Positions 133-48,500 of a DNA stretch of 64,000 bases are shown in pieces. Source of the DNA: Alphaproteobacteria bacterium (GTDB taxonomy: Bacteria > Pseudomonadota > Alphaproteobacteria > WRAU01 > Hepatincolaceae); NCBI GenBank assembly GCA_009780035.1, contig WRAU01000004.1, positions 1-64,000 on the forward strand, in the 5' to 3' direction. The notes beneath the pieces were generated by a model. That model saw nothing but the letters and a program-made list of their open reading frames with translations, did not search any database and was not told the origin of the DNA. The translations under genes were made by a program, and so were the position numbers. How positions within the stretch are numbered: the stretch's first letter is position 1; the number at the start of each line of letters is the position of its first letter.

Positions 133-918
133 TTACATTCTTATACTTCTACTATGGGTAATGCTGGTATTTAGGTCTGTTAAATTAACTATCCCAGCGA
201 TTAAATACATATTAACACCGAAGTTCTTCATGCGGGTGCTATCTCCGCCGGTTGAGTTTGTATTTACATTTCCGCTAGAGTTGGTATTTTGCAAGCCTGC
301 GTTGTGTGTTCGGATAGTATGTTCATACATACCAGCTCCACGATTAGCCTCTCTTCCCTCAGTTCAAGCATCTTCTATTAAATTTCTAATAACATTAACA
401 ACGCCTCACCCTCAGTAATCTTTTCTTTGTAAATATGCAGGAAAACTAACTTCTATATTAGGTAAGCTATGAGAATGTGCACCTTGCATATGATTATGCG
501 ATTTAATATCATCTTCCTGCAGCATTAATATATTTTCAGTAGGATTAATTTGCCTAAAAGTTCTGTCCAAAGCATTAGGAGCATTAAATAACACATTACC
601 ATCTTCATTGGTATAAGTAGCAATTTTATCTTTTAATAATGGATAATCATCAAGTTTATATCCCGTTGTGCCATCGCATAAAATATAATCATAAACGCCA
701 TCGTTATAAGTTTTAAGACATTGGGTTTGAAAGTTAGTATCTATCTGTATTTTTCCTATCTGGCTTACAATTAAGGGTTTTATCAGTTTATTGTAAATAT
801 CTACAAAGAAAGTATCTCTTGGGATTCTTCAATCGTTCCCTTCACCATTGGTAGCTATAATATCTAAGTTATCGCTATTGCGGGCTATTTCATTATTGTA
901 TAAAGTTTTTGTTGCCAT
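133..918 (-). CDS. Phage tail-collar/tail-fibre protein, read with UGA as Trp
   Basis: From ATG at 918 to TAA at 133 the frame is open for 261 codons if TGA is read as Trp. Under the standard code it is broken by four TGA codons, at 829-831, 412-414, 406-408 and 364-366. The product has phage tail-collar features: a YILCDGTTGYKLDDYPLL segment, FNAPNALDRTFRQ (matching the usual FNLPDLRGRF), a His-rich HNHMQGAHSHS metal-type motif and a C-terminal NMYLIAGI strand. The recoded Trp contexts are NDWRIPRD, DYWGWGVV and EDAWTEGR. No TGG occurs in this gene. It has its own consensus promoter (952-980) and an AGGA Shine-Dalgarno before the ATG. It would form the distal tip or fibre of a phage tail or a tail-like particle. 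No other tail gene is visible. A pseudogene is the alternative, but four interruptions that are all TGA, with no TAA, TAG or frameshift, argue against it. Confidence 0.8.
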
Positions 919-951
919 AATTATATCCTTTGTTTGTTTTAATACAGCATT

Positions 952-1087: not shown

Positions 1088-2080
1088 GTGAATAACAATA
1101 TAAATGTAGCGTTTTGCTGCGATGAAAATTATGTACCATATTTAGTTCCCTCAATAATATCTATTATAAATAGTAAAAATAAAAACACTTCTATTGCAAT
1201 TTTTATATTAGAAACTGGTATCAACAATTATCATAAAGACAATATCCTTAAATTACAGACAGATAGTGTCCGTATTAACTTTATTAATGTGGCAGAGCAA
1301 GCAAAAGATTTAATTTTAAGTAAAGTTCCTCACAAAACAAATTTTAATAGCACCATTTTATATAAACTATTAATTCCGCAAATATTTAATGATTCAGCAA
1401 AAATATTGCTTTTAGATGCTGATATTATTGTGCAAAAAGACTTATCAGAATTATATAATAAAAATATAGGCAATTATTATATTGCAGCAGCAAAAAGAAA
1501 GTTACCCTACCACTTAAAGTATTTTATAAGCAAAGGAAAAAAATATTCTGTGAGAGAATTCTATAGTAAAGTGCTAGGATTACCAGATTATTTTTATGAC
1601 AGTGATGCTAAATATTATATGAATGCTGGCGTAATTTTATTTAATATATCAAAAATTTTACAGGATAATAAAGATAAAGAATTAATAGAGGTTTTTTTTA
1701 AGCATAAAGATGGGCTGGTATATGCAGAGCAAGATATTTTTTCGAAAGTATTTTTAGATAGCATTGCCCCTTTATTGCCTAACGAGCATTTTGTTCATGT
1801 TTTTTATGATAAAATTAGGAAAGAAGAATATAATAAGGTTTTAAATGAACATAAAGAGGCAGCTATAGTTCATTATATAGCTTCAAAAACCTATGCTAAA
1901 ATGCTAAGATCTATTTATGCAAAAGAATATTTTGATAATTTACAAAAGTCGTATTTACAACTATCTTCTTTAGATATTTTTTTACTGAAATTAAAAACTA
2001 TAAAAAAATTTATTTATAAACCAAAACTATGGTGGGCTATGCCGTATGTTTTAGGTAGTATTAAAATAAACAAAAAATAG
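1088..2080 (+). CDS. Glycosyltransferase family 8 protein
   Basis: The 330-residue product is a GT-A fold glycosyltransferase of family GT8, the group that includes LPS galactosyl/glucosyltransferases such as WaaI/WaaJ-type enzymes and glycogenin. Visible hallmarks are the N-terminal NVAFCCDENYVPYL strand-loop, the metal-binding DAD motif in LLLDADIIVQKDL (about residues 114-116), MNAGVILFN in the acceptor region (about residue 178), and the C-terminal IVHYIASKTYA segment with the conserved His. A basic C-terminal tail (KTIKKFIYKPKLW) could bind the membrane. The likely job is adding a hexose to LPS or another surface glycan in the cytoplasm; donor and acceptor cannot be told. Translation starts at a GTG (1088). 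It stands alone, convergent with the alcohol dehydrogenase gene. Confidence 0.85.
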   Translation: MNNNINVAFCCDENYVPYLVPSIISIINSKNKNTSIAIFILETGINNYHKDNILKLQTDSVRINFINVAEQAKDLILSKVPHKTNFNSTILYKLLIPQIFNDSAKILLLDADIIVQKDLSELYNKNIGNYYIAAAKRKLPYHLKYFISKGKKYSVREFYSKVLGLPDYFYDSDAKYYMNAGVILFNISKILQDNKDKELIEVFFKHKDGLVYAEQDIFSKVFLDSIAPLLPNEHFVHVFYDKIRKEEYNKVLNEHKEAAIVHYIASKTYAKMLRSIYAKEYFDNLQKSYLQLSSLDIFLLKLKTIKKFIYKPKLWWAMPYVLGSIKINKK

Positions 2081-12012: not shown

Positions 12013-12247
12013 TAAAAAATCCGTTTATATACCTTATTAAAATAGTGGGATATTGTTGTAAATGCAAGTGGATTCGCAAAAATGTTTAAAATATCAGCAA
12101 TATACAGGCGAAAGAAGAGTAAAAGCAATTTTATTGCTTATTTTTGCAATAACAAACAACAAATGAGTCTTCATATTTGTATTTTAAAAATAATTGATAT
12201 ATACCTACTTTATAAGATTAAATAGATTCAATTAAGGGATTTTGGTT

Positions 12248-15200
12248 ATGGATGAGGAAAAAGTTGTAAGCTATGCAGGAAATAAGGTATCTTTGTTTGC
12301 TCCTGCACAAGGTGGAAGAAGGGATATAGCTTATGTCCGCCCTGGTGATGAAGTAGCTTTAAATTTTGATATTAACGACGCTAAAGCGCTTAAAGTTGAA
12401 ATAATCAAGGGCGATATTCATATTGTTTTTGCCAACGGTTCTACTTTAACCTTAATTTCAATGGCGGCAATTGGCTTCGGCGATGATGCTCCAAAATTAG
12501 TTACTATAGACGGCAGAACTTTATCCTTAGAAGAATTCCTTAGCGTAACTTCCGTTTTAAATTATAATGAAGCCCTTTTAATTCTAGCCAACGAAACTCA
12601 AGTAGAATATTCTCCTAATGAACCTAAACTAATTCAAGTGGCATCAGACCAAGATGCAGATAACACCGCAGGTATGCCAATAAGCGGACAAGGAAACTCA
12701 GATGTTTTAACAAAAGGCGTTCCTTCTGATGTAATTGATAGTGCAGGAACTGTAGAAACTCAAGGCGTATCAACAGGACGCGGCAGTTTCGTTTCTACAA
12801 TTTGGACAAGCAACTACCCATACACATTAGATAAATCTAACTATATGCCTGGTGATACCACTCCTAAGAATCTGCCAAATTTAGATGTTACTGTTTTATA
12901 TGGTTCACAGCTATCGAATATTGGTCAGCAGCAAGTTGACGGTCAGAACTACCTAACTTTTCAATTCCAAAACGGCTTTAACTATACTGATGATAAATTT
13001 TCACAGCTATATGCTAATACTGTGCGTCAAGGAGGGTCGTCTCAAGATGTTTTTGTGAATAACTCCACTCCTGAGATGTCTTATATATTTAATATGAACT
13101 ATACCCGTGGAACCTTTCCAAGCTATATTGAAATTTTGGTTCCTAAAAGATTAGAGGGTGTTATAGACTTAAACCCTGGTGCGGGGTTAGTTTTTAGCAA
13201 TATATCATCTACCGATGAAGGCACAGTTTATGCTATATCTGATATTAATCCTTTAGGGGCTATGCAGTTTATTTTATCTTTTGCCGCCAACACCGAGATA
13301 TATAATTTTGATTTAAGTTATTCTATTAAATATTTAGATCCAAGCACAGGGCAGTTTTTAACGGCTACAGCTACAAATCCAATATCTTTATACCCAGTTT
13401 CTCAAGAATCGCATTTAGATAAATCTAATGGTTTTGTGTTATCTACAGTGCCGAATCCAGTAGATGCTGAAACTGGTTCTGGTAATGATATTATTGTCGG
13501 CGGCGGCGGTAATAACCGTATTGTTTCAGGCGGAGGTAATGATAGAATTTTTACCTATGGCGGTGATGATTATGTTGATGTCGGCAGCGGTGATAATCAG
13601 GTTTGGGGTTCTCAAGGCAGTGATTTAATTAAATCTGACGGCACTGGTCATAATGAGCTTTATTACGATAATCGTGTTCCTCCAAAAATTGGCGCTAATG
13701 AATCAGATTTAGCTCCTTTTGCTAATACAAATACTGCTTCAGCTGGAATATTTACTTATTATGGGTTTGATTCTGATGCTCTTAGAGGATTTGCCGGCAG
13801 TGATTTCAAGAATTTTTCACAAATTAATGATTATGATATTCTTATTAAAAAATCACAAGGTATAGATCTTATAAAAGGATTTCAAGATATTTATCTATCG
13901 CAGTTTAATGATACTTTAATAGTTTCTGATAGTGTTGACTTAGGAAATTTAAGAATTCATGGCGGTGAACTGCCGAAAGACAGCAGCGGTAATTATATTA
14001 GAAAAGATACCGATACTGTAGTTATTGATGACGGTTTTGTTGGAGCTGAAGTTAGAATCGGCAATACCATTAGCACAATTAATAGTACTAATGGTGTAAT
14101 TGTATCTTTTGATGGCTTTGAAGTAGTTAGAGGCTCTAAAAACGATGAAAGATTCTACGGCAATGTTATATCGGGCTTTGCTGATACAGATATAGCTATT
14201 ACTTTAGACGGTATGGGCGGCAACAATGTTCTTGACTATTCAACTTTAAGCAGCGGCTATATTGTTTTTGATGCTAATATTGGCAGAGTTGATTTAAAAG
14301 ATGGCTCTGGGGCAGGATTAGGTTCTAACGCCATTAGAAATTTCAGCGAAATAGCAGCAAGCAGCGGCGATGATATTTTCTATGGTTCTTTCACTAATAA
14401 TTATATTTATAGCGATTTAGGCGGAGGAGATATTGTATCTTATGAAAAATCTAATGCGGCGGTTACTATTGTTTTAGATGGTTCTAGCGGAAGTTTCTTT
14501 GTTTATAAAACTACTAAATTTTTTACTGAAGCTGAACTTTTAGCAAATAATGTTTTTCATGATGAACTAAAGGGTTCTTTTAATATTGATAATTTAGCAC
14601 TATCTGCCCGTGATGATATTATTATTGTTACCGATGAAAATGGCAGCTATAATTTTAACGCTGGCGGCGGCAGAGATACACTAAGCTATCTTGATTTAAC
14701 TAATGGTGTTAATGTTACTTTTGATAATTCTGGTTTTGGTAAAGTTACTAAAACTGGCGGCAGCGGTGTTGATACTTTTAGTATAATGACACAAACAGCT
14801 AGCGGGCAGGACACTGTTAATATTTATCGTATTATTGGAACAGCAGGCGATGATTATTTCACAATGGATGATGCTGGCTGGGTGGATGCTAGCAATCAAG
14901 GCAACAAAGCTGGATTTTCTTTAGATGGCGGCGGCGGTTCAAATACCTTATCTTATGCTAATGTCAATAAATATATCGATGTTAATGGCAGCCCAAATGG
15001 TGTAACCTTTAATTTTAACGGCATTAACTCTTCAGTTATGAGAGCGGCAAGCAGCACTGTTGATTTTTTTAAAAACTTTCAAACTTTTATTGGTTCAGAT
15101 TTTAACGATACCTTTATTTTCTCTTCAGGCACTAAGATGAGTGATTTGCAAGGTTTAACTATATACGGCGGCGGCGGCACCGATATTGTAAATTTTACTT

Positions 15201-18200
15201 CATTAGATACTGCGGTAGTGAACCACATTGAAGTAAGTTTCAATGGCAATGAAATGAATGTTGGCTTTTTTGATACTACTAGAGCATTAGTTAGCACTTC
15301 TATTTTTTATGAAATTGAAGGAGTGGTAGGAACAAAAGGTGATGATTATTTCGATGCCACAGGCACTAGCGGTATGAGCATATATTTTAATGGTGTTGAA
15401 GGGAATGATACTGCTGATTATTCTAATATAAGCGATGATGTAGTATTTCATCTAAGTGATAGATCTTTTGGCAATGTTCTAAAAGGAAGCGTTCAAGATA
15501 CCTTATTAAATGTTCAGCATATTCTTGGCGGCAGCGGCACTAATTATTATTTCTTAGATTCTTCATTTGCCTATACTATAGATGGAACTGCGGGTCAAGA
15601 TACTGTAAGCTATTCTACTTCTATAACTTGGTCTGTTGCTAAAAATACTGTTACTAAAGGTTCTGGCACTAATATATTGGTTGATAATTTAATCAATGTT
15701 GAGGGAGTTAAAGGGTCTCAAAGCGATGATCGTTTTGAAGTTGATTTTGATGTTAGCAATTATGTTACAGCTCCGCTTGCGGATTATTATTTTTATGGCA
15801 ACGATATTAATCCAGATGGTCCTGGCACTCCTAATGTTAATCCAAAATCAGATACCGACTGGGTTGTTCTTTCTTCTTTTACATCAAATTTATCTATTAT
15901 CTTAGATAGCTCCGCTGCAGGTTCTTATAATACTTATGATCCAACAACAAGTTTAATACAGACTGAAGGTGATGTTGTTATTTCAAATTTAGCCTTAAGT
16001 TCAGGATCTACAAATTTACATTTAATACACATGGAAGCCTTGCTGTTAGGCAGCGGTGATGATACTGTTGATATAATTGGTTCTTATGGGGCAGCTGTAG
16101 GCAGAACTAGATGGACGATTGATGGCGGAACAGGATATAATACAGTTTCGTATGCAAATGATGCTAATCTTAGCAATAGTAATGGTAATATTATGACTGT
16201 TAGCTTAAACGCTAGCGGTGCTATGGTTGAAAAAAACTACGAAAGCGGCAGCGATACTCGTAAAGCTACTGATAATTTAACCAATGTTCAGGAAATAGTT
16301 TTATCGCAGTTTGATGATGTGGTAACTATCAGCAGCGGTTGGGAAACTTCAAAAATTAAAGATATTTACGGCGGCGGCGGCAATGATACTATTAACTTTG
16401 CAAACATCAACAACGATCTTAAGGTTACTGTTGAAAACACGGGTAAATTCGGTGTTATAATTGATGGATCTTTTGGAGTATTGCCAACATTTTATGATTT
16501 TAACAATATCCGTCTTTCTAGCGGGGAATCTAAAGTTATATTTGAAGATGGCAGCAATTTCAGCGGATTGGCTATTACCGCCAGCACTTCTGTGACTGCT
16601 CTAGGTATTTTAGATTTCCAAGCACTTAGTGCGTCTTTAACTGTAACCTTAGGCGAGCTTGCTACAGATATGGATACTATTGTAGGAGGTTCAAATAACT
16701 TCAGCGTTTATCTTATATCTTATAAGTCTTATGATGGTTTTACCATGATTTTTGCCAATAATAACAATACAGTTATTGGCAGCCTTAATAAAAACATAAA
16801 CTTTACAGGAACAGGCAGCGGCAATACTTTAGATTACAGAAATACAAACGGCGATGGAGTAGTAATTCAGCTGGGTGATTTTTATTTGAATAATCAGACT
16901 GTTCCTACTAACAATGGCGGCAGGGTTACTAAAAATAATTCTGATAATATTTTCGATACTTTCGATGATAGCTTTAGTATAATCTACGGCACAACTAGAG
17001 ATGATACAGTGCTGATTGCTAATCTTAATCAATCTACTGGTTCTTCTAAAACTATAGAGCTTGGCGGTCAGGCTGGAGACAGAGTTCTTGTAGATCTTAA
17101 AGATCTTGTAAGCGGCAATGTTATTTCTGTTGGAGCAAATTTAGATATTATCAGCGGAGATGTTACATCTTCTAGCCTTTCAGGCAGCGCAACTATTAAA
17201 GGATATGGCGGGGTTAATAGAGTTGATTTCGGCGCTTCTGACAATACCATTACATTCTCTTCTGCTTTTAGCAGTGCAGGCAATTTAGATTATGCTAATT
17301 ATAATGCTACAGATGGTTTTAAAAACACTTTAGATTTCTCTGCGGTAAATCAAGTTATTTTTGACGCTGCTAAACAGCAGGTTTCTAAAAACTCACTAAA
17401 CACTGACTACGGAAACTTAACCTATGTGCAAGGAAGAGATAACACTGGGGCTATGGCTGATGTAATTTTTAAAAATTTCTACAGCATTTTAGCGGCGTCT
17501 GCTGATACTTTATTCTATGGTCAGGGCAGAAATAACTATAGTATTACTGGAGCTGCCGGCAGCAATATTATTATGGATTATTCACAGTCAGCAGCTACTA
17601 TCAATATTATGCTATTAGATAGACAAATTAACAAAGCCGGAGCTTTTTTTGATACATTTACTAATGTTTCTGTAATTAACGGCACAGATTATGGTGATAC
17701 TGTAACCATTAATAAAACAAACATCTCGCCAGACCTAAACAATATTACTATTGATGGCGGCGCAGGCAACGACAGGGTTGTTTTTGCTTTTACAGACAGC
17801 ACTGCTATTGTAGCGAATTTCTCTGATTCAGGAACTTCGTTTAGCTTTGGATCGTCTCAATCAATTAATATTAATTTTATGAACTTTGAAATTTTCCAAT
17901 TTACTCCAAATGACGACCAAGTTACTATTGAAAGCGATGCAACTGGCGGTTATTCTTTAATTGGCGGCGGCGGCAATGATACCGTTATATATACAGGCGG
18001 TGCTTCTGGCAATGTAGATATAGAATTTGATGCTGCTACTGGTCGGGTATCAAGAAATGGTGTAAATCAGCTTGATGCTATAACTTCATTTAGCACTATA
18101 GAATACACAGGAAACGGCACTGCCACTTTTAAAGGAAGTGAAGGCAGAGACATGACCTACAAAGGAGGTGCAGGCAATTCAAATTCTGGAAATGCAGTGC

Positions 18201-21200
18201 TAGATTACTCTAATGGTGCGCCAAGCTCTGCTATTACCGTAACTTTTACGCAGTCTAACGGCTTAATAAAAGTAGAAAAAGGAAGCTCAGGTCTTAGATT
18301 TGACTATTTTAATGGTTATATTAATACAATCATTGGAACTCAAGGGAACGATATGTTCATCTTAGATGCTAGAGCCTCTAGCTTGCCAGAACTAACTATA
18401 AAAGGCGGCGGCGGTGATGCCGATACCGTTTCTTACGAAAAATATCAAAACAGCGGCATTACAGATTTTGATATAGATGCGCAAGGGTTAGTAGTAATTA
18501 CTAATGATACTAGCGGTCAGTTTAGTAATTATAAAATTGATTCTCAATCTATTCAATCTTTCAAATTAACTAATGGTAATGATAGATTCCATGGCGATGC
18601 TAACTCATCAATAACTATTGATGGCGGCACAGGGGTAGATATATTAGACTATTCAAGCCTTAGTGTTGATTTAACTATAGATTTTACTACAAATAGAGTT
18701 ATAAAAGAAACTGCTACCGGCACTAATGTTGATACTTTTTATAATTTTAACGGATTTGAAGCTGGGTCTGGCAACAATACCATAATTATTAACGATAAAA
18801 TTATAGATAAAGCTACTAATGCTACTGGTGATATAAATGTTGGCGTTGGTGCAAGCAATACTAATACTTTGAATGCAGCATTTTCTCCTAATGATACTGT
18901 TGGCTATAATATGGAAGTGGTATATGGTCAAAACGGAACCTATAATTCTGTTTTAACCTATAGCGGCAGCGATAGTCAAGGGAACTCTCTTACTGGTCCT
19001 GTTTCTGCAAACTATAATGGCTTTCAAAATATGTTTTTAGGAAGCGGCACGAATAAGGTTTCTTTCTATTATGATGCTGTTTATGGTACTACAGCAAACA
19101 GATTGCAATTTACATCAGCAAGCAGCGATGCTACATTCCTATTAATGGGCGGTGGCTCTGGTTCTTTTCAAGAATTATTTCTTGATAATGTAACTGATAC
19201 TGCCATATTTTCTTTTGCTGCAACCAGCACCGGTGTTAATTTTATGACAATTGCTGGATTCTCTACCATTGGAGTTTTACCGGGAACTACTGCTAATTAT
19301 CAATTAAGCATTAAAACTTCTGGGTTAAATGGCTCTCATGTATTCTATGGCGGCAATACTTCTAGCGGGATTGATGAAATACTTTATGATCAAGCTATTG
19401 ACGGTCTGCAAGCAGGTCTTGTAAGAAACGGCAATGATATTTATATAGAAATAAAAGGCTCTGGTTCAAACAGTTTTACTGATAAACTATACGATATTGA
19501 AAAAATAGTTTTATCTAATGAAGATGATACTTTTGATATTGGCGATGGTGATTTTAATGGCTATACCAGTAATTTAGGTGCTTTAACAATTGATATGGGC
19601 GGCGGGTTAAATAATGTTTTATCTTTTGCCAGTATGACCAGCGCTTTAACTATTGATATTGCAAACGATGGAAAATTAGGAGGAATTCCTAGTGTTAACG
19701 GTATTCTTAATTGGAATATAGTTGCTTTAACTAATCAAGCTGATACAGTAACATTCAGCAGAGAAGTATCAACCAAAATTGATGGCGGCGGCGGTCGTGA
19801 TACTGCTAACTATACCAACAGTGATTTTACTAGCGGCGTGATTCTTTCCGTTGGATTAGATAATAACGGCGCAGAGGTTATGAATGTTAACAAAATATAT
19901 AATAATGTTAACTATAGCGATCAGTTAAAGAATTTTGAAATCTATAATTTAACAAACTATGATGATACCTTTACATATATGGGGGCAACTCAGCTGTCTG
20001 CAGACACTACTGCTAATACTCAAATTGTAATTGATATGGGCGGCAGCGGAGCTAACGGCGATTTAGTAGATTTTTCTAACATGAGCAGCTCTATAGAAAA
20101 AACAAAGTTTGTTTATACATCTACCGGCGAATTAACTGTAGTTAATGATGGAACTTTAGGCGGAGTGGTTCTTAACTATAAATTCCTTCAAATGGATACA
20201 GTTATTTTAGGCGGAAAAGACAGCTCTTTAGTATTAGAAAGCCTTCCTCCTTTTGGCGGTGCCGGCGGCGTAACCTTTATTGCTGATATTAACAATACAA
20301 CCTTTTTAGATCTTTCACAAATTACTAATGCTAATAATATGGTGGTAGATGTTGGGGTTTCAAGCGTATTAGATAATAACGGCAGTAATCCTACATATGG
20401 GTTAACTTATAAAAACTTCAGAGGCGTAATTGGCGGAGCTAAGGTAGTAAGCTACTCTATGAGTGAAACTGATGAATCAAATAACAATATTGATTATACA
20501 GTTTACACAGGCAACTCTAATGCTACTATAGATTATTCCAGAAACGACGGCGGTATTACAGGCGGTATTACAGTTAATGTAGATATTAACAGCAATACTA
20601 CCGTTGATAAAGCTAACAATACAACTGATACTATCGCTTATGATGATGGTTCTGGCTCTGGAAACAATGCTGCATTTGGAACTTTTGTTGGTTCAAATTA
20701 TGATGATACCTTTGTTTTCTCAGCTGCTGGGTTTCAAAATGGCTTATCTATTGATTCAGGTGCAAATTGGCAGAGCGATCCTGCAAATGGCAATGATACT
20801 TTAAATTTAAGCGCAATTAATAGCTCTATTAAATATACAATAGATTTAAGCCAAACTGAAGATTCAGCGGTTGCTGGGTCGGCTACTGCTAAATTTAAAG
20901 ATTTTAGAAATATTCTTGGCTCATCTACTCAAGCTAATGAGTTTACTTTAGCTTTAGCTGGAATGAGCAGAAGTTATGTTGCATCTTTAGACGGCGGGGG
21001 GATGACAGGGTCTTCTTTTAGCACTACGGGAAGCGGTTTAGCTGCCGGCACAAGCGGAAAGGTTACTATAGCTTCTGGTTCTGCTTCAACATCAGTATCA
21101 CTGTCTTCTAATATAGGAGCTAATACTGTATCTGTGGATATGGTTGGTTTTGATACTCTTAATTTTAATGCGGATATGGATATAGTCATAGCTTTTGCAG

Positions 21201-23725
21201 ATGATTATATGAACAGCACCGTAACAACAATAAATGCTAATAGCTCGCGTAATAATACTTTAAATCTCTCAGCTATAGCTTCTAATGTTAATATTAACAG
21301 CAGCGGTTTTGCGCTTACAGGACCTGGTGGTGCTCCAACAGTTGTTAATTTATCTGGTTTTAACAACCTAGTTTTAGGAGGACAGCAAGATAATTTAACT
21401 ATATCTAGCTTTATACCTGGTTTAAATATTGATGGCGGCGGTGCCGGCGTAGTTAATCCTGATACTTTAAATATAGAGAATATGTCTAATTATTCTGTTG
21501 TGCTTACAAGTAAAACTAGTGGTGCGTTTTCTATTGATGTTTATAATTCATTAACTCCAGTTATTGGAACAGATGCTCATTCATCATTCTTAAACTTTTC
21601 ATTAATTAATATAGATGTTAGTGCTAATATATTAATTTTAGATGGAGCTCCGTTAGCTACATTGCAAGCAATTCATGTTAATAACAGCGATGGAACAAGT
21701 GCTTTATCTTTAAAAGCTAGCGATGGTTCTGGTATAGCAATCTCTGCAGCAAAATTAGATTTAACCGCCAACACTATTACAATTAATGCCAAGGAAATTG
21801 CTTATACTGGAATTAATAATTTTAGTTTTGGCAGTGGTTCTGATAGAGTTATTTTAGACAGTTCTACTAGCGGCTATAAAGTTGATGGCGGTCAAGGCTC
21901 TTCAGTAGGCAGCGATAATAATGAAATAGTATTTAATGCAGGAAGTTACAATGTTAACATTGGCGGTGCTGCTGGTGATACAGCTACATTTAATGGTAAT
22001 ACCTTTATTAATTTCTATAACCTTAATTTCACAGCGGGCAGTAGCAATACTAACAATATAACCATGAATAATATTGCTACAAACTTGAATTACCGTTTTA
22101 GCAATATAGATACATTAACTTTTGGCAGTGATTTTGCGGCTAAACAAGTTAATACAATAGCGCTAGACGGCAATAGAGCAAACTTCTCTAATGGAAATAT
22201 AAATGATTCCGTAGGTATAACTGCCTCTTATAACAATTCTATGAATTTAGGGTTTGATGCAGTAAGCATAGATTATACTTTAACCGTAACTTTAGGCAAT
22301 TTATTTGCTACCGGTAGCGGCGGTATTAATGCTCCAACTTTAACTGGCAATGGCTCGGCTGTTTTAATTCTATCTAACATTAGTGAGAACGGAACACAGC
22401 AAGGCTCTTATAACTTTGATGTTATTAATAATGGTATTAGAATTAATGGGCAAAGCAATACTGTAGATGTTTTTGGCTTCAGCGATTTTGAAGTTGGACC
22501 TTATAATTCTACTGTTACATATTCTAGCTCATCTACAATACCGGGCGGCAGAACATTTATGGGAGGCACGCCAAACAGTAAAGTTGATGCTGGAGGTTTT
22601 TTTGCAATTTCAAATGGCGGTGCAGGCAATCAGGTAAGTGATAGCTCTGGTCATATTGATACTTTCCAAGGCTTTGGAATATTTACTGGATCTACTAGAG
22701 TAAACTTAATTACCTCAGAAGAATCTTATCAGTCTTTAAAAGCGATGGATTCTGATAGTAATTTCCGCAGTGCTAATACCGATTCATCAACAAGATATAA
22801 CATGACTGACGGCAATGATACGCTAATGGTTAGCGAAGTTAAGCATAACACTATAGTTGATATGCTGAAAGGCGATGATGCAATTGTATTGAACGGACAT
22901 GCAGCTTTCTATAATGTAGAACATTTTAAAGATGCTTATATTATTATTGACGGCAAGCAATATCAAACTGGCGGCAGCTATTTAATTATTACAGACGACA
23001 ATGGCAATCAGATGTATGTGTTTAATGCTAATCTTGATGATATTAAATCGGGCGGCGTTTTCAACTATGATGATGAAGGTAATATTTCTAGCAGCGGCTA
23101 TAAACAGCATCAAGATAGTTATGATAGCTCTAAGCCTGTAGAAAACGCTGATAATCATCCAAAACCAGATCATAGTCATTCTAATGATGGCTATTCTAAT
23201 GGCAGTAATGGTGTTAGCTCGTATTCTTCTGGACTTGGTGTCGGTGATGATTTGGTGCTTGCAGATAATAATCATGGTCATGATAGCTTTAACAATCTTC
23301 CTTTTGAATTAGTTGAAGATACTAGCTTAGGCTTGCATTATGATGATGAGTTTAATGTTGATAATATTCATCATGATAGTCTTGAAACCAATGTGAATAA
23401 TGCTTTAGATGATTTAAGTATTCAAGTTGCCGGCGGTGAAGGTGCATCGCAAAATCAAGAGATTTCTGATAACGATTTAAGCGATATTCTTAACCAAACC
23501 TTCACTAACGAAAATGATGATTTAGACAATCTTAATCTTAACTTAGATTCTAGCAATAACAGCATTGATGTAAGCGCGATCAATGAAAACCTTGTTGAAG
23601 AAACTACTCTTCAAGAAAGCGATATCGACAGCTATAAAATGGAATCTGAAAGAAATGAAGATGGCACTCTAAAAATCAATCACCATAATAATTCCAACGG
23701 TAATAGTGGAATGGGTTCTTTATAG
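12248..23725 (+). CDS. Giant RTX-type repeat surface/secreted protein (first)
   Basis: A 3,825-residue protein and the most likely cargo of the T1SS encoded downstream. Architecture: an N-terminal BapA-prefix-like domain (about residues 20-80, with RPGDEVALNFDI and GDIHIVFANGSTLTL), a beta-rich domain to about residue 400, a short canonical RTX block (GSGNDIIVGGGGNNRI onward, from about residue 411), then about 3,000 residues of degenerate repeats of roughly 100-150 residues. These recur as GGGG-x-DTxxY, a beta segment, a DTFxNF-like stretch and a GSxxDDxF turn. The last 250 residues are rich in Asp, Asn, Ser and His and probably hold the secretion signal. I saw no cysteine, as is usual for RTX exports. 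I choose ATG 12248, which AAGGGA precedes, rather than TTG 12242. A role in adhesion or as a surface layer is inferred. Confidence 0.82.
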   Translation: MDEEKVVSYAGNKVSLFAPAQGGRRDIAYVRPGDEVALNFDINDAKALKVEIIKGDIHIVFANGSTLTLISMAAIGFGDDAPKLVTIDGRTLSLEEFLSVTSVLNYNEALLILANETQVEYSPNEPKLIQVASDQDADNTAGMPISGQGNSDVLTKGVPSDVIDSAGTVETQGVSTGRGSFVSTIWTSNYPYTLDKSNYMPGDTTPKNLPNLDVTVLYGSQLSNIGQQQVDGQNYLTFQFQNGFNYTDDKFSQLYANTVRQGGSSQDVFVNNSTPEMSYIFNMNYTRGTFPSYIEILVPKRLEGVIDLNPGAGLVFSNISSTDEGTVYAISDINPLGAMQFILSFAANTEIYNFDLSYSIKYLDPSTGQFLTATATNPISLYPVSQESHLDKSNGFVLSTVPNPVDAETGSGNDIIVGGGGNNRIVSGGGNDRIFTYGGDDYVDVGSGDNQVWGSQGSDLIKSDGTGHNELYYDNRVPPKIGANESDLAPFANTNTASAGIFTYYGFDSDALRGFAGSDFKNFSQINDYDILIKKSQGIDLIKGFQDIYLSQFNDTLIVSDSVDLGNLRIHGGELPKDSSGNYIRKDTDTVVIDDGFVGAEVRIGNTISTINSTNGVIVSFDGFEVVRGSKNDERFYGNVISGFADTDIAITLDGMGGNNVLDYSTLSSGYIVFDANIGRVDLKDGSGAGLGSNAIRNFSEIAASSGDDIFYGSFTNNYIYSDLGGGDIVSYEKSNAAVTIVLDGSSGSFFVYKTTKFFTEAELLANNVFHDELKGSFNIDNLALSARDDIIIVTDENGSYNFNAGGGRDTLSYLDLTNGVNVTFDNSGFGKVTKTGGSGVDTFSIMTQTASGQDTVNIYRIIGTAGDDYFTMDDAGWVDASNQGNKAGFSLDGGGGSNTLSYANVNKYIDVNGSPNGVTFNFNGINSSVMRAASSTVDFFKNFQTFIGSDFNDTFIFSSGTKMSDLQGLTIYGGGGTDIVNFTSLDTAVVNHIEVSFNGNEMNVGFFDTTRALVSTSIFYEIEGVVGTKGDDYFDATGTSGMSIYFNGVEGNDTADYSNISDDVVFHLSDRSFGNVLKGSVQDTLLNVQHILGGSGTNYYFLDSSFAYTIDGTAGQDTVSYSTSITWSVAKNTVTKGSGTNILVDNLINVEGVKGSQSDDRFEVDFDVSNYVTAPLADYYFYGNDINPDGPGTPNVNPKSDTDWVVLSSFTSNLSIILDSSAAGSYNTYDPTTSLIQTEGDVVISNLALSSGSTNLHLIHMEALLLGSGDDTVDIIGSYGAAVGRTRWTIDGGTGYNTVSYANDANLSNSNGNIMTVSLNASGAMVEKNYESGSDTRKATDNLTNVQEIVLSQFDDVVTISSGWETSKIKDIYGGGGNDTINFANINNDLKVTVENTGKFGVIIDGSFGVLPTFYDFNNIRLSSGESKVIFEDGSNFSGLAITASTSVTALGILDFQALSASLTVTLGELATDMDTIVGGSNNFSVYLISYKSYDGFTMIFANNNNTVIGSLNKNINFTGTGSGNTLDYRNTNGDGVVIQLGDFYLNNQTVPTNNGGRVTKNNSDNIFDTFDDSFSIIYGTTRDDTVLIANLNQSTGSSKTIELGGQAGDRVLVDLKDLVSGNVISVGANLDIISGDVTSSSLSGSATIKGYGGVNRVDFGASDNTITFSSAFSSAGNLDYANYNATDGFKNTLDFSAVNQVIFDAAKQQVSKNSLNTDYGNLTYVQGRDNTGAMADVIFKNFYSILAASADTLFYGQGRNNYSITGAAGSNIIMDYSQSAATINIMLLDRQINKAGAFFDTFTNVSVINGTDYGDTVTINKTNISPDLNNITIDGGAGNDRVVFAFTDSTAIVANFSDSGTSFSFGSSQSININFMNFEIFQFTPNDDQVTIESDATGGYSLIGGGGNDTVIYTGGASGNVDIEFDAATGRVSRNGVNQLDAITSFSTIEYTGNGTATFKGSEGRDMTYKGGAGNSNSGNAVLDYSNGAPSSAITVTFTQSNGLIKVEKGSSGLRFDYFNGYINTIIGTQGNDMFILDARASSLPELTIKGGGGDADTVSYEKYQNSGITDFDIDAQGLVVITNDTSGQFSNYKIDSQSIQSFKLTNGNDRFHGDANSSITIDGGTGVDILDYSSLSVDLTIDFTTNRVIKETATGTNVDTFYNFNGFEAGSGNNTIIINDKIIDKATNATGDINVGVGASNTNTLNAAFSPNDTVGYNMEVVYGQNGTYNSVLTYSGSDSQGNSLTGPVSANYNGFQNMFLGSGTNKVSFYYDAVYGTTANRLQFTSASSDATFLLMGGGSGSFQELFLDNVTDTAIFSFAATSTGVNFMTIAGFSTIGVLPGTTANYQLSIKTSGLNGSHVFYGGNTSSGIDEILYDQAIDGLQAGLVRNGNDIYIEIKGSGSNSFTDKLYDIEKIVLSNEDDTFDIGDGDFNGYTSNLGALTIDMGGGLNNVLSFASMTSALTIDIANDGKLGGIPSVNGILNWNIVALTNQADTVTFSREVSTKIDGGGGRDTANYTNSDFTSGVILSVGLDNNGAEVMNVNKIYNNVNYSDQLKNFEIYNLTNYDDTFTYMGATQLSADTTANTQIVIDMGGSGANGDLVDFSNMSSSIEKTKFVYTSTGELTVVNDGTLGGVVLNYKFLQMDTVILGGKDSSLVLESLPPFGGAGGVTFIADINNTTFLDLSQITNANNMVVDVGVSSVLDNNGSNPTYGLTYKNFRGVIGGAKVVSYSMSETDESNNNIDYTVYTGNSNATIDYSRNDGGITGGITVNVDINSNTTVDKANNTTDTIAYDDGSGSGNNAAFGTFVGSNYDDTFVFSAAGFQNGLSIDSGANWQSDPANGNDTLNLSAINSSIKYTIDLSQTEDSAVAGSATAKFKDFRNILGSSTQANEFTLALAGMSRSYVASLDGGGMTGSSFSTTGSGLAAGTSGKVTIASGSASTSVSLSSNIGANTVSVDMVGFDTLNFNADMDIVIAFADDYMNSTVTTINANSSRNNTLNLSAIASNVNINSSGFALTGPGGAPTVVNLSGFNNLVLGGQQDNLTISSFIPGLNIDGGGAGVVNPDTLNIENMSNYSVVLTSKTSGAFSIDVYNSLTPVIGTDAHSSFLNFSLINIDVSANILILDGAPLATLQAIHVNNSDGTSALSLKASDGSGIAISAAKLDLTANTITINAKEIAYTGINNFSFGSGSDRVILDSSTSGYKVDGGQGSSVGSDNNEIVFNAGSYNVNIGGAAGDTATFNGNTFINFYNLNFTAGSSNTNNITMNNIATNLNYRFSNIDTLTFGSDFAAKQVNTIALDGNRANFSNGNINDSVGITASYNNSMNLGFDAVSIDYTLTVTLGNLFATGSGGINAPTLTGNGSAVLILSNISENGTQQGSYNFDVINNGIRINGQSNTVDVFGFSDFEVGPYNSTVTYSSSSTIPGGRTFMGGTPNSKVDAGGFFAISNGGAGNQVSDSSGHIDTFQGFGIFTGSTRVNLITSEESYQSLKAMDSDSNFRSANTDSSTRYNMTDGNDTLMVSEVKHNTIVDMLKGDDAIVLNGHAAFYNVEHFKDAYIIIDGKQYQTGGSYLIITDDNGNQMYVFNANLDDIKSGGVFNYDDEGNISSSGYKQHQDSYDSSKPVENADNHPKPDHSHSNDGYSNGSNGVSSYSSGLGVGDDLVLADNNHGHDSFNNLPFELVEDTSLGLHYDDEFNVDNIHHDSLETNVNNALDDLSIQVAGGEGASQNQEISDNDLSDILNQTFTNENDDLDNLNLNLDSSNNSIDVSAINENLVEETTLQESDIDSYKMESERNEDGTLKINHHNNSNGNSGMGSL

Positions 23726-23927: not shown

Positions 23928-26900
23928 GTGAAAAGAAGTAATACCGCTAATGTAGATCCGAGAACTATTAATTTTGCTGATGTTAAAAAAAGATTAGAAG
24001 ATAAAATTGATAGAATTAATTCTTATCAACCAAAAAAAGGTTTTAAAGAAGCTCCTAGAGCTGGCACAGCAGGGTTAAATAGCAATAGTCAACCTCAAAA
24101 TAATCCTAGTCGCTTTTCTGCTAGTCCGCAGAATGATGCTGGGTTTAATCCCAACCGTTTTTCTGCAAATCCGCAAGGTGATAGCGGTATGCCGCAAAGC
24201 AGTGGCTCTGGGTTTAATTCTAATGCTGCACCGCAGTCTGATTTTGGCGGTTCGCAGGGTTCTGGAGCTGGAGGCTCACAAAATCCTTTCAGCAGACAGT
24301 CTGGAAGCGGATATGGTTCGCATGGAAATGATCCTTTTGGCAGAAAATCTTCTGCAGGTCAATTCGGGGATCGCGGCTCTTATGGCGAGGAAGCAGATGC
24401 CGGTAATAGAGGCGGTATGGGTGCTTGGAATCGCGGCGGAGCGGCAGAGGCTGGTTCGCAAGGGGAATCTCGATACGGGCAGAATGCCTTAGGTGCTGGT
24501 GGAGGATACTCTGAGGGCAGAGAAAATCAATCTGAAATTCAAAGAAAATTAGATTTTCTTGAGCAGGAAAGACTTAGCGATTTAAGAAATCGTGCCAGTG
24601 ATTCGAAACTATCTTACCTAGCTGATAGTTTAGGTAAAATAGAGGGCAGATTAGATAATCTGCAAAATCCTCCTGTAGGTCAAATGGATGTTTCTTTAGA
24701 AATTATCCAAAGAAAATTAGACAAATTAGAACAAGATAGAATTGATTCACTTCGCAGTAAAATTGAACAAGAAAGAGCTAGAGAGTTAGAAAAATCTATT
24801 GAGAAACTTGGAGCTAAAATTGAAGATTCTTACATAGCCGGTAATACTATCTATAATAAAGGACCATCAGACTTAGAACTTATTCAAAGAAAATTAGATA
24901 AATTAGAACAAGATAAGTTAGACGCTTTAAAGTATAAACTTGAAGAAGATAGATCTTCTGAGATTGTCCGTAATTTAGAAAAAATTGAATCTAAATTAAC
25001 AAGCTCGGTAGATAAATCTGCCTTAGATAAAGCCGCCTACTTAGAGGCACTGTCTAAGGAAGATCTGCTAAGAAAAATTGACAAATTAGAGCAAGATCGT
25101 ATTAATGATATTAAAAATCTTGTGGAACAAGAAAAAGCAATGCTTATTAATAAGCAGATAGAAAAACTAGAATCTAAACTAGAGCAGGCTTTATCTAATT
25201 CTGCAGGAGAACGAACTTCAGCAGAAGCCTCAGCGGAACTTGCTAAGAAACTAGAAAGAATAGAACAGGCTAAAATTGAAGAAACACGGGCAAGAAAAGA
25301 AGAAGAAAAACTTTTGGCGCTTAGCAGAAGTTTAGCTAATATCGAATCTAAATTAGGGGAAAAGCAGGTAATAACTACTCCTCCTGATGTCATGAGAGAT
25401 TTCTTAAATGTTGTTGCCGACAGATTGCAAAGATTAGAGCAGGAAAAATATGCTGAGCCTGTAAGCACAACTAATTTAGAAAGAAGTTTGGCAAGTTTAG
25501 AATCTAAAATAGAAAAAATATCGTATCCAGATGTAAGCCATAAAATGGATTCAAGATATGCAGCACTTTTAGAGGGAATTGAAAGAAAGCTATCAAGATT
25601 AGAACAAGATAAGGTTGATGAATATAAACAAAGGAGCGAAAGTGATAAAATCTCAGAGCTTAGCCGAAGTTTAGATAGAATCGAGGGTTCTATAGCTAAT
25701 AATAGGATTGCCCCATTTTCTACAGGTGTAGAAGGTGACGGTCTTGGAAAAAAGTTCGATAAGCTAGAGCAGGATATTCGTTCTAGCTTAGAAAAAGAGA
25801 AAATATCTAACTTGCAAAGAAGTTTAGATAAGATAGAAACTAAGCTAGATTTTGATTCTAAAATACCGCCGTCTTATACGGCTGGTAGCGAGCTTTCTAG
25901 CGCTTTTGCAGAGTTGTCTAAAAGGTTAGATAATTTAGAGAAAAAAAGAGCAGAAGATATTTCAGCCAAAGAAAACTCTACTGATGATTCTAAATTAACG
26001 GCAATCTTAGAGAAAATAGAGAATAAAATTCAAGCCGCTGCAGGTGATAATCAAAAAGATAAAAAAGATTTTTTTATTGAAGAAATTCAAAGAAAAATTA
26101 GTGCTTTAGAAGAATCTAAAGCAAAAGATTTATTATTAAATGCCGAAAGAGAAAAATTTAATAATCTATCTAATTATGTGGAAAAATTAGATTCCAAAAT
26201 CAATGATATAGCTTTATCTGGATCTTCTAATGCTAAGCCAACAGATGATGTGGCTCGTTTGGCGGATAAAATTGCTAAGATTGAAAAAAATAGAATTGAA
26301 GAAACTAAAGAAAAACAAAATTTAGAAAGATTTAATAATCTATCTAATTATATGGAAAAATTAGATTCTAAAATCAACAGCCTTTCCTCTGCTAATAACA
26401 GCTTGCAGCCTTCATCTGAGATAACGCAATTAGCTGACAAGATTGATAAAATCGAGCAGAATCGTCTTGAAGAAATTATAGCAAAACAAAAGAAAGATCA
26501 TCTCGCTAAGATTGATTCTAAATTAGAAAAAATTGAAACTAAATTATTAAATCAAGAAACTTCAGGTAATAATCCTGCTGCCAACTTAGGATTAGATAAT
26601 CTTCATAGAAAACTAGAGAAACAGCAAGATAAAATTAGTGAACTGCAAGCAAAATTAGAGCAGGAAAAATTTGCTTCACTAACCCGTCATTTGCATAGTT
26701 TAGAGCAAAAAATTGATGCTAAAAATATAGCTGGTAAAGATGCCGGCAGCCCTGCCCTTGAAAATATATCAAGAAAAATTGATAGTTTAACAGTCAAAGA
26801 CGATAGCAGCTCCTTATTGCAGGATATTAAGAATCACTTAAGCAATTTAGAATCTAAAAAAGATGATGCTCATTCTAAAATTCTTTTAGAAATTAAAAAT

Positions 26901-29900
26901 CATCTTCATGGTTTAACGCAAAAAAATAGCGATATAAATAATCCTATTCTTTTAGATATTAAAAACAAGATAGATAGTTTAAATTCAAAAGATGATGATT
27001 CTAATAAATTATTATTTATAGATTTACAGAATCAAATAAATAATTTGGCACAGCAGAAAGATGATGCCAACAATTCCTTGTTGCTCGATATTAAAAATAA
27101 GCTGGATAATGTCAATTTTAAAAATACTGAAGCAGTAGGATTAATCTTAACCGAGCTGAAAAACGCTTTAGTCGGTCAAAAAATACAAACAGCTGAGTTT
27201 CCGCAAAGCAAGGCATTAACAGATATTAATCATAAGCTAGATAGTTTATTGGTTCAAAAAAATGATAGCAGCAATTCAATTCTTGAAAATATTAGTGAAC
27301 GTTTAGCTAATTTAGAATCACAAAAAAACTTGAATTCACAAAATGCAATTTTGGTTGAAATTAAAAGCCATCTTGATAAACTGCACGATAAAATTAATGC
27401 TAATGACAACAAAGATTCTTATTTAAAACTTGATGCTAGTATTTTAGATAATATTAATAACCGCTTAGATAACCTAATTTCTAAAGGAAGCGATTCTAAT
27501 ACGCCGTTGCTGTTGGAATTAAAAAACAAGTTGGATAGTTTAAGTTCTAATAATAATGATTCTAACCGCTCATTATTAATAGATTTACAAAATAGATTGA
27601 ATAATCTTTATCAGCAAAAGAATGAGGCTAGCAATCCAATTTTATTAGAAATTAAAAGCCAGTTGGAAAAAAATGACAATAGCAATAATGCGGTGCTAAA
27701 AGAAATCAGCAGCCGTATAGATAATTTAGAATCTAAAAAAAACGATTCTAGCGATAGAATGCTTATTGAAATAAAAAATAATTTAGAGCAAAGCAATAAG
27801 TTTAATAACTCTATTTTTAAGGAAATAAGCGAACATTTAAATAATTTAAATTCGCATACTGGCGATAGCCATAATTTACTTTTAAGAGATATTCAATCTC
27901 GGCTAGATAATTTAAGTATTAAAGTTAATGAAGCTAAAGATTCATATGCAGGTATGAAGCTGCAGGATAATTTGTATTCTGCCTTAGAACACATAAAAAA
28001 TAAGCTGAATAGCCTGCTTCCAAAAGAAAATAATCATAATCTGTCTGCAGATATTAAAGATTATCTAAAAACCATAACTCTTCCAAAAGAAGACATTAAT
28101 AACGAGCTTTTGAAAGAGCTTAAAAATAAATTAGATAAGCAGGATATTTTTAATAATTCTATTTTAATTGAATTAAAAAATATTTTAGAAAATCTTAAAT
28201 CACAAGGCAGCAATGCTGAGAACAACTCGTCCTTAGCAGAAATGAACCGCACTTTGGAAAGGGTGTCTTTACAAAACAACAATAATCTTATTGCTATCCT
28301 TAGTGAAATAAAATCTAATCTCGATTCAATAGAGGAAAAAAACAAAAATATTAGCGCTAGTGATATTAATACTAATATTTTATTAGAACTTAAGTATAAA
28401 CTAGACAATCTCGGACATAAAAATCATGATGTAAATAGTTCTGCTATTGCTGAAATTAAAGACCTTTTAGAAACAAATAATTATACAGACAGCGCTTCTC
28501 TAAGAGAAATATCTAATCGTTTAGATAAACTAGAATCGCAGAAAGATGCAGAATCACAAAATACAATTTTAGCTGATATTAAAAACCGCCTAAGTAATTT
28601 AGAATCTAAAAAAGGCGATTCTAGTGAAATATTACTTTTAGAAATTAAACATAAATTAGATAATTTAAATATTAAAGATGAAGATTCTAATAAACTATTA
28701 TTAACAGATTTACAAAACAGAATAAATGCACTTTACCAGCAGCAAAGTAATGTAGATAACACAGTTCTTTTAGAAATCAAAAATAAGCTAGATAATATCA
28801 GCTTTAAAAACCATGATAGCGTTGGTTTATTATTGGCAGAGCTTAAGAATACTCTAAACGGGTTAAAACAGCAGAATACTAATGCTGCTAATAATGCCAT
28901 ATTGAATAAGTTAGAAAATTTTAATAAGCAAGACAGTAATCCTTTATGGCTGGAAATTATTCAAAAGTTGAATGACTTGAATGCTAAAAATTCTGATAAT
29001 TCTAACTATAATTTGCTGTTAGATATTAAAAATGCTTTAAACAGTTTAGTTTCTCAAAACAGCAATAATAATAATTTATTATATGTAGAGTTAAAAAATA
29101 AACTAGATACCCTTAATTTATCTAAAAATGATGCTAATAATGCTTTGCTATTAGAAATTAAAAACCAGTTAGATAAACAGAAATTTCAAAACAGTATTTA
29201 TATAGATAAAGACTCTCCTGCACCTAAAACTGAAATACTGCTAAAACAAGAGGAAAATAACAAATTAGACGGTTATCTTCTTAATAAAAATAACGAAAAG
29301 CTAGAAGATATTGCCGTAAACCTGCTGAAATTTAATAACGATATTAAAAATCTCTCGAATAATGTAAATAATAATTTGCAAGAAAGGATTATTACACTTT
29401 TAAACAATATTCATGATAAATATCTTGATAAAATTTCGCAGATAGAATCTTCTATGCGGTTAATGCTTCAAAACGACAATGATATTAAAGGCTATATCTT
29501 AGAACAAGAAATGGCAAATGCAGAAATTTCTAAACTAAAAAATCAGCTTGCTGCTGAAAAAGATATAGCTCAACGCAGTTTTTTACTAAATGAAATCAGT
29601 AAGCTTAAGTCGGCAGATTCTAGCGATAAAAATTTATCTAATAAAAGCGAACTTATTTTAAGTGAAATTCGCAATCAGCAAGATGCTATTAAGAAGTCTA
29701 TTGAAACACTTCCTTTACTAGCTGCCGGAGAAAAAGACTCACCAATAATAGAGGATATTAAAAATTTACTTACCGAGGTTAACGCTCGAAGCAAAGCATT
29801 GAATGATAGTTCAGAGGTTGAGAAAAGGAACTTAGAAAGCATCACTGAAAAAATGAATTCATTCTTTGATGAAATATCTAAAAAATTTCTTGCGATACAA

Positions 29901-45563: not shown

Positions 45564-48500
45564 ATGGCAAACTCAGTAACATACAATACAGATGCAATTC
45601 AAGTTCAAGATCCTAGAAAAGAAAATGTGGTTATTTACGCACATCCTGGAGATAAAATCAATATAGGTTTTGATATTTCGGCACTTAGAGTTGAGGTTGT
45701 GAACGGCGATTTAGTAATTAAAACTCTGGGCGGCGGCAGCATAACCATTGCCAATTATTCAATTATGGCATTGCAAGAAATAGCTCCTTTAATTGTAGAT
45801 TCGCTATCGCATCAATATGCTTTTGCCGATTTTCTTAACTCTAGCCCAACTGCAGCTGCAGCTATAACTTCAACCGATAATCCAGATTCTTTCGTGGTGA
45901 ACCGAGTAGTTTCAACGCCGAAATCAGTTGTTTCCGGCGATTACCTTACCAGCGGTGAAACATTTTTACAAAATAATGAATATTCTACAAGAAAATTAGT
46001 TGGCATGGTAGATGTTGATGAACAGCATCCCATTTTGGCACAGGATGTCAGCCTGTCTCCTTATATGATGCTAAGATTATATCCAGATGGCGTTGCTCCC
46101 TATGATGCTCAGGTTGTTTATAGATATAACGGCAGAACTTTGTTAAATCAAGAAGAGCCAAGCACGCTTCCAGTTATAACTAGAAATACCAACCCTCGTT
46201 CTAATCCTATATATGGAACCAAAGAAACTTTCTCTACGCCAACTTTAGAAGATGGCAATGTATTCCAAGTAGTTAATACAATTGCCGGCGGCGGTAATAT
46301 TGTGGGCAACGATTATTCTGTTTACCAATATAGTCCGCAAGTTTTAGATTATTCTTCTATGGGCGGCAATATTTTATACAGAGCATATACAGGCAATCAA
46401 ATTGTTAGGGGTTTGCAGTTATATTTAACAGATGCCAATGCTTCACTTAGCAATATCTTAATTCAAAATGTTCCGGAAGGAGTGGTTTTCCAATCTACAG
46501 ATTCTACAGAAGTTCAGCCTTTAGGCAATGGAATGTTTTTTATACTTCCTAAAGCACAGTCTCAATCCATAGATTTATATTTTGCTTACAACGAAGCCAG
46601 TGCTATAGATAGCTATGGCAATCCAATTGGCTTGAAAGATATAATGCAGCAGGTTTCAGTTCAAATTGAGGGTTATAATGCTAAGTATCAGCAGCTGGTA
46701 TTAGGAAGAACTGAGCTTACTTTAGATTTTAGACAAGTTCGTTCGGACGGAGATCTTAATAACTTTTCAATGTATAATACTTATACCTATTCAACGCTTT
46801 TTGATCCTCTTATCGTTCGTGCAACTCATTTTGATGATGATGTTTACGGCGGTGTTGTAAATCATACCTATGATACCTTAGACGGCAACGATACTTTCCA
46901 CAGCGGCACAGGAAACGACACCGTATATTTAGGAGAAGGTGATGATACCTATATTTACAACTGGGGAAATGACTGGGCAGACGGTAAAGCAACTATGGGC
47001 AGCGCCGGCAATCCGCAAATGGTAGGGGTTGATGCCATTAGATTCGATCACAATGCCTATACTTATGCCAATGGAAATTATGTTTTTAATTCAGCTATTG
47101 CTATTAGCTTTAATAACGGTGTAGTTCATGTTAAAAACACGGCAGTGAATCCTTCTGGGAAAGTTGATAACTCTAATTCAACATTTCAAAACTTTGATGA
47201 ATTATATTTAGAAGAAGATACAGGTGTATCGGCTAATCAAAATAATACTATAGATATTAGCTCTACTGCAGGGTTTAGAGGTTTTAAAATTTATAGTGGC
47301 GGGCATGTCGGCGATGGCGCTACAGACGGCACTTCTGAAGATACTCTTAATATACACAGTTCTGCGCTAATTAGTTTTGATGATGCTGTCGGTGCTTTTA
47401 TTTCTACTGTATCAACAAGACTTAATGCTAGGGCTGCTAGTGATTTTGATGCTACTCAGAATATTTATTTCGGCTTATACGATTATAACGGTGTAAGCAA
47501 TTATTTCCGCACTATTAACGGGTTAAACGGTAACTTTACTTTCTTGGCATCTAATGAGAAAAACTTCAATGTTGTGTTTAATGGCAATAGTGCCGGCAAG
47601 CATACTTTAGATTTTTCTTTAATTACAGGCAACGGAGTAGTTTTTGATGCAAACAGCGGTATCACTACTTACGGCAACAGTTCAGATATTATAAAAGTAA
47701 TAAATGGTATTTTCATAGGCACAGACGCTGATGATCAAATTTATGCAAGCGGCATCGGCTCTATGGAATATTATGGGCACGCTACATCTTCTTCTGCTTC
47801 AAACGGGGGCAACGAATATGTTTCCTATGAAAGATGGGGAGGCGATGGTTCTGGAAAAGGCGTTAGCATAAATTATCTTACAGAACTTTCTTCAGGATAT
47901 ATTGAGGTTATTAAACCTAATGCCGCAGATAAAGATAAACTATATTATATAAACGATGTTAGAGCCTCACAGTTTAATGATACATTCATACTAGCTTATA
48001 GCGGATCATATGTTATTGATGGCTTTGACGGAACTGAAGATACACTTGATTATAGTAAAGACTCCGCAGGTTCTGGAGGCATAATTGTTAATATTAATAG
48101 TATGAACACCGGCAGCAGCCCATTCGGCGCAAGCGGACGCACCGATAAGGGCACTCAGTTTGACGATTTCCAAAATATCAATAAAATTATTGGAACAAGC
48201 GGCGATGATAAATTTTATATAGATGGACCGCAATCTACCAACATGTTTTACGAAGGCGGCGGCGGCTATGATACTATCTTCTATGATGGCAACAATATAC
48301 CTTCTGATGTATTCATCACTTATACTTTTTCTGGCACTGGCGGAACTTTGGTAAAAAATACTAGCAGTGGACAGTTTACAGATAAATTAACAGGATTCTC
48401 TGAAGTAACAGCAACAAATAATGACGACGCTTTTATAACAAGCGATGATAGCTGGCGGAATGGAAATGTTCAGTATTATGGAGGCAAAAGCAATTGGACT

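Follow-up and report, generated by a model that had tools for sequence, protein, structure and literature searches.

In-frame UGA codons at tryptophan positions in phage-derived genes of an alphaproteobacterium whose own genes keep UGA as a stop

Late genes of phages in which UGA has passed from stop to tryptophan, with a suppressor tRNA to match, are known (PMC10746230 and PMC9523058, describing Borges et al. 2022), and recoding has been proposed to act in such phages as a lock on late gene expression. The phages share three features with the genome described here: UGA stands for Trp in late structural genes, a tRNA-Trp(UCA) is present, and the host has the standard code and RF2. Unlike in those phages, the tRNA in the present case lies on the host chromosome outside the phage loci, the recoded genes are distributed over several loci, and one recoded cluster is vertically inherited and is standard-coded in sister genera. 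Bacteria with code 4, such as Mycoplasma and Hodgkinia (PMC8629427, PMC2704378), likewise combine a tRNA-Trp(UCA) with a small genome, but in the genome studied here RF2 is kept, UGA is still a stop and host genes are not recoded. Stop recoding in phages is thus not new; its host-borne form in domesticated phage genes appears to be.

Two further comparisons concern the podovirus-like head cluster on contig C9 of this genome. Its gene content resembles that of prophage region 2 of Ca. Hepatincola porcellionum, which has capsid, head-tail connector and tail tubular protein A genes, has no attachment sites and occurs in all three strains (PMC9992710); the cluster also has the same flanks in the presumed HepAv strain. 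Regions 2 and 3 of that species (PMC9992710, PMC11724238) differ in being standard-coded, and the passages searched in the two papers make no mention of recoding. Like gene transfer agents (PMC9662315, PMC11841831), the C9 cluster is a set of structural genes without integration or replication genes that holds one locus over genus-level divergence; unlike them, it is podovirus-like and UGA-recoded.

The window, 64,000 nucleotides, forms the left end of contig C4 in a 1.42-Mb genome (G000) that is 98.8% complete. Direct reading covered about 40% of this genome, as stretches (L numbers), so that all host counts are samples. Two genomes of its family, G001 and G002, served for comparison, and the sister genome G003 was added for tRNA genes. 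The sequence-only reading had taken the DNA to be alphaproteobacterium-like, which fits; the nearest complete relative was taken to be Ca. Hepatincola porcellionum HepAv, presumably our G001.

The gene that drew attention to this locus runs on the minus strand, which the sequence-only reading had left unstated, from 918 to 133, and ends with a TAA stop at 135-133. The other claims about the frame held: its 261 codons include four TGA codons, no internal TAA or TAG, and no TGG. The TGA codons are codon 30 (829..831, in the motif GND[W]RIPRD), codons 169 and 171 in the fibre variable region (412..414 and 406..408) and codon 185 (364..366). Upstream on the same strand are a sigma-70 type promoter matching the consensus at 12 of 12 positions (TTGACA-N17-TATAAT, 980-952) and a ribosome-binding site, AAAGGA (926..931), with the ATG 7 nt further on; both had been reported correctly. 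The name tail-collar is less secure: its one support is a weak profile match, to PHROG 19618 (E 4.5e-5), Pfam profiles gave no collar match, and we call the protein tail-collar-like. Outside the collar gene the window holds ordinary long frames. Three of these, without TGA, are giant (12242-23725, 23928-31967 and 45564-57182; 3827, 2679 and 3872 aa), and the end pieces of two of the three had no Pfam match.

The collar gene is one of at least five paralogues in the genome, with further copies on C1, C3 and, twice, C6, together with a partial copy, and nearly all carry in-frame TGA. Codon 30 is TGA in four of the five full paralogues and Phe in the fifth (Tyr in the partial copy), although synonymous divergence is near saturation, a degree of conservation beyond chance. 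At two columns TGA in one paralogue is matched by TGG in another; at others TGA is exchanged with Tyr or Phe, and codon 185 varies among TGA, Tyr, Phe and Gln. For the first 145 columns, dN values of 0.07-0.25 stand against dS values of 0.9-1.9, and dN so far below dS indicates that the sequence flanking TGA on both sides has been maintained by selection. The possibility that these are decaying pseudogenes, with TGA as nonsense mutations, finds some footing in two of the copies, since the C1 copy is frameshifted near its start by a 1-nt insertion after codon 4 (L015 8395-8410) and the C3 collar has an extra TGA aligned to Gly. The C1 copy nevertheless retains its perfect promoter, as do the others named below; it could perhaps serve as a silent donor for fibre variation. 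In G001, one stretch (L019 5703-9063) holds three tandem tail-fibre genes with N-terminal parts in common and differing ends, all in standard code. No close relatives of the collar or sheath-like proteins were found in viral, genome or phage collections. A fold of the sheath-like protein predicted from the single sequence had a pLDDT of 33 and was discarded.

Two larger clusters are recoded as well. The tail-type cluster on C6 (L014, about 3.9-15.7 kb) comprises lysozyme, a DUF276 protein, a tape-measure-like protein and two collar genes, and has 14 TGA and 8 TGG codons. The head cluster on C9 (42.3-52.9 kb) comprises terminase (TerL), portal (PF12236, E 1e-87), capsid (PF19821, E 1e-84), tail tubular A and B and small proteins, and has 8 TGA and 28 TGG codons. 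Together with the dispersed collars, these loci contain 31 TGA and 37 TGG among 6,845 codons, with neither TAA nor TAG, and the C1 frameshift is the only one seen. As TGG becomes TGA or TAG by one G-to-A change in either case, decay should have produced TAG as well as TGA. The argument that random decay gives all stops, made earlier for the collar gene, applies across all recoded loci; together with TGA at Trp columns (see below), dN far below dS and the perfect promoters, it makes the pseudogene reading very improbable. A T follows only 1 of 30 internal TGA codons against 19% expected (p 0.015); UGA followed by T is a context that favours termination (PMC5289835), and its scarcity is in line with selection against strong termination contexts.

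The meaning of UGA can be read from C9, which can be aligned with standard-coded relatives. Six of its seven alignable TGA columns are TGG-coded Trp in each of G001 and G002: TerL 432, portal 483, p109 25, capsid 80, tail tubular A 51 and tail tubular B 271. Among 30 homologues, TerL column 432 is Trp in 25, Tyr in three and His in two. The seventh, tail tubular B 224, is Asn or Gln in relatives and lends Trp no support; like the additional TGA in the C3 collar, it may be a substitution or damage. For the eighth TGA, in a 313-aa protein, no alignable homologue was found. As judged from these alignments and from the exchanges of TGA with TGG, Phe and Tyr among collar paralogues, TGA occupies Trp positions in frames under purifying selection. 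The proposed reassignment of UGA is supported for the collar gene and its relatives; as a statement about the whole genome it is not supported, as RF2 and UGA stops are kept.

C9 has the same gene order in G000, G001 and G002 and is standard-coded in the latter two. Its neighbours in G002 differ from those that G000 and G001 share; from their sequences we take the shared ones to be an mnh antiporter operon on one side and a YfcC-like transporter, a porin-like protein and a rhodanese on the other. The shared locus in G000 and G001, together with the standard code of the relative, implies that the cluster is old and inherited and was recoded later in this lineage. Taken on its gene content and position, C9 is an old, vertically inherited cluster of gene-transfer-agent-like type, with no integration or replication genes within it. 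It had the standard code at the split from the sister genus, and the TGG-to-TGA changes followed in this lineage. These data bear on a different origin, namely that a recent foreign prophage, recoded beforehand, brought its own tRNA-Trp(UCA) and that the loci are its remnants, not domesticated genes. Phages with recoded late genes and a suppressor tRNA are a precedent for this (PMC10746230, PMC9523058), and C6, found in no relative, and the collars fit it in having no close kin in 385 alphaproteobacterial genomes or in phage collections. C9, having the same flanks and the standard code in G001, was not imported in recoded form.

Host genes, in contrast to these loci, use UGA as a stop. RF1 and RF2 are intact, the latter with its SPF and GGQ motifs, so that the loss of prfB, which the sequence-only reading had proposed to look for, was not seen. 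UGA terminates 17 of 278 sampled host ORFs (6.1%), compared with 4.7% in G001 and 5.2% in G002. All 840 Trp codons of sampled host ORFs are TGG, as are all 79 of the prophages on C5 and C1, and no read-through TGA was seen in the sampled host genes or these two prophages, an absence that is partly by construction, as table 11 ORFs end at TGA. Two tests are independent of this: the share of TGA-ended ORFs, given above, and a scan of the sampled DNA for TGA with an open stretch of 100 aa on either side, which found none in host DNA and matched a recoded C6 gene only. In the sampled host DNA, then, RF2 and UGA stops persist, and the recoded codons are restricted to certain loci of phage origin. 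A switch of the whole genome to code 4 would account for a tRNA-Trp(UCA) and for the small number of UGA stops; with RF2 intact, a share of UGA stops like that of standard-code relatives, host Trp codons that are TGG and no read-through frames, we regard it as highly improbable. Three other leads were dropped. A TGA inside the C5 terminase belonged merely to a 5' extension of the match. Extensions from host UGA stops to a back-up stop are short (median 6 codons), and equally short in relatives. A His-to-Gln change in the codon-recognition motif of RF2, considered as degeneration, is likewise present in G001, G017, G047 and G054.

Besides a tRNA-Trp(CCA) on C16, the genome has the tRNA-Trp-like gene with anticodon UCA that the sequence-only reading had called for. 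It lies at C1:52667, 220 nt past tRNA-Leu(CAA) and amid host genes; the nearest mobile-looking gene, a XerC/D-like recombinase, is about 7 kb off, and no UCA tRNA was found within the C6 or C9 clusters. The tRNA is 74 nt long, scores 63.6 bits, has a U6-U67 mismatch and shares A1-U72, G5-C68, A9 and G73 with tRNA-Trp. It is 79% identical to the host tRNA-Trp, compared with 83% for tRNA-Trp(CCA) from other alphaproteobacteria. Greater closeness to tRNAs of other alphaproteobacteria would suit delivery by a foreign phage, and a location amid host genes at such a distance from a recombinase speaks against it; taking this with the history of C9, we consider a foreign, already recoded prophage improbable. 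In G001-G003 the CCA form of tRNA-Trp was found and no UCA form. An exact search for the 15-nt anticodon arm in 385 alphaproteobacterial genomes, which misses UCA variants with another stem, returned this tRNA and 12 other matches, eight of them tRNA-Sec (~95 nt) and four not tRNAs. Two standard-code prophages carry tRNA-like elements (C1:2234-2292 in L062 and C5:2712-2778 in L061) of 32-33 bits, with shortened stems and no ARAGORN call, each located between the repressor gene and the gene that follows.

ARAGORN labels the UCA tRNA SeC, and its anticodon would suit UGA as selenocysteine. The tRNA has no long variable arm, no SelB scored over the cut-off in the genome, and homologues have Trp, Phe or Tyr at TGA columns, which leaves selenocysteine with next to no probability. 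UGA might instead be read as Trp with no part played by this tRNA, through the near-cognate tRNA-Trp(CCA), an inefficient RF2 or A-to-I editing of UGA to UGG. In E. coli, tRNA-Trp(CCA) is known to read UGA weakly, and the Gln in the RF2 codon-recognition motif, where most have His, would be compatible with such a route. The same Gln in four other genomes counts against it, as do the several genes with two to four TGA, which would require efficient decoding, and the existence of a dedicated UCA tRNA. The motif of TadA is UACG, and the context of the TGA codons does not fit it. We therefore give these routes little credence.

The reading that we consider likely is that UGA has two meanings in one genome: a stop, through RF2, in ordinary host genes, and Trp in C9, C6 and the dispersed tail-fibre genes, probably by means of the UCA tRNA, with C9 recoded after the sister-genus split. 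We infer that this tRNA paralogue, charged with Trp, would compete with RF2 at UGA; it is the most probable decoder. As UGA stops have not been purged and TGA has not spread into host genes, decoding is probably weak or conditional. UGA codons could then lock particle production at the level of translation, as has been proposed for phage late genes (PMC10746230, PMC9523058), and such a lock on the particle genes would account for the restriction of TGA to structural genes. Such a genome would also represent an in-between state of the sort postulated by models of code change, in which UGA serves as both stop and sense codon while RF2 is kept, and a host may use recoding to gate phage-derived particles. 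In practice, standard gene calling splits recoded genes of this kind into fragments.

Promoter sequences offer one hint of regulation. Nine perfect consensus sigma-70 promoters were found in about 0.55 Mb, and six precede recoded genes: the collars on C4 (the window gene), C1 and C3, two genes in C6 and the C9 portal. All but the last of these six have a spacer motif in common. The promoter of the UCA tRNA (TTGACA-N17-CATAAT) partly shares this motif, its spacer ranking eighth of 284 candidate promoters, outranked by the five sites from which the motif was derived and by two sites without a downstream phage gene; the resemblance is suggestive only. It would suit a scheme in which the tRNA and the particle genes are co-induced through the common motif, so that in most cells the genes could not be translated before the tRNA appears; the host would thereby run a translational lock on a particle resembling a gene transfer agent. 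We put this forward tentatively, as a possibility that we would not expect to hold.

Some smaller observations were made as well. The phage promoter element recurs at L025 2816 (minus strand) and L141 6525 (plus strand), where it precedes no phage gene; these two copies have a downstream stretch in common, GTGATGTAAA..ATAGGAGG..CATCATG, one lies about 170 nt before dxr, and they may represent a small element that is mobile or has a regulatory role. Short dispersed repeats of about 28-37 nt enter frames at L014 11446-11556, L015 7489-7680, L059 16918-16948 and elsewhere, yielding peptides such as MDAVFQRHDD, and are reminiscent of Rickettsia palindromic elements. Finally, a glycosyltransferase family 8 gene adjoins the collar gene of the window (1088..2080, plus strand; PF01501, E 2e-31), another lies between the two C6 collar genes (L014:9702-10655; E 7e-18) and a third beside a tail cluster in G001 (L020 11389-12345), a pairing that is possibly a fibre/surface-sugar module.
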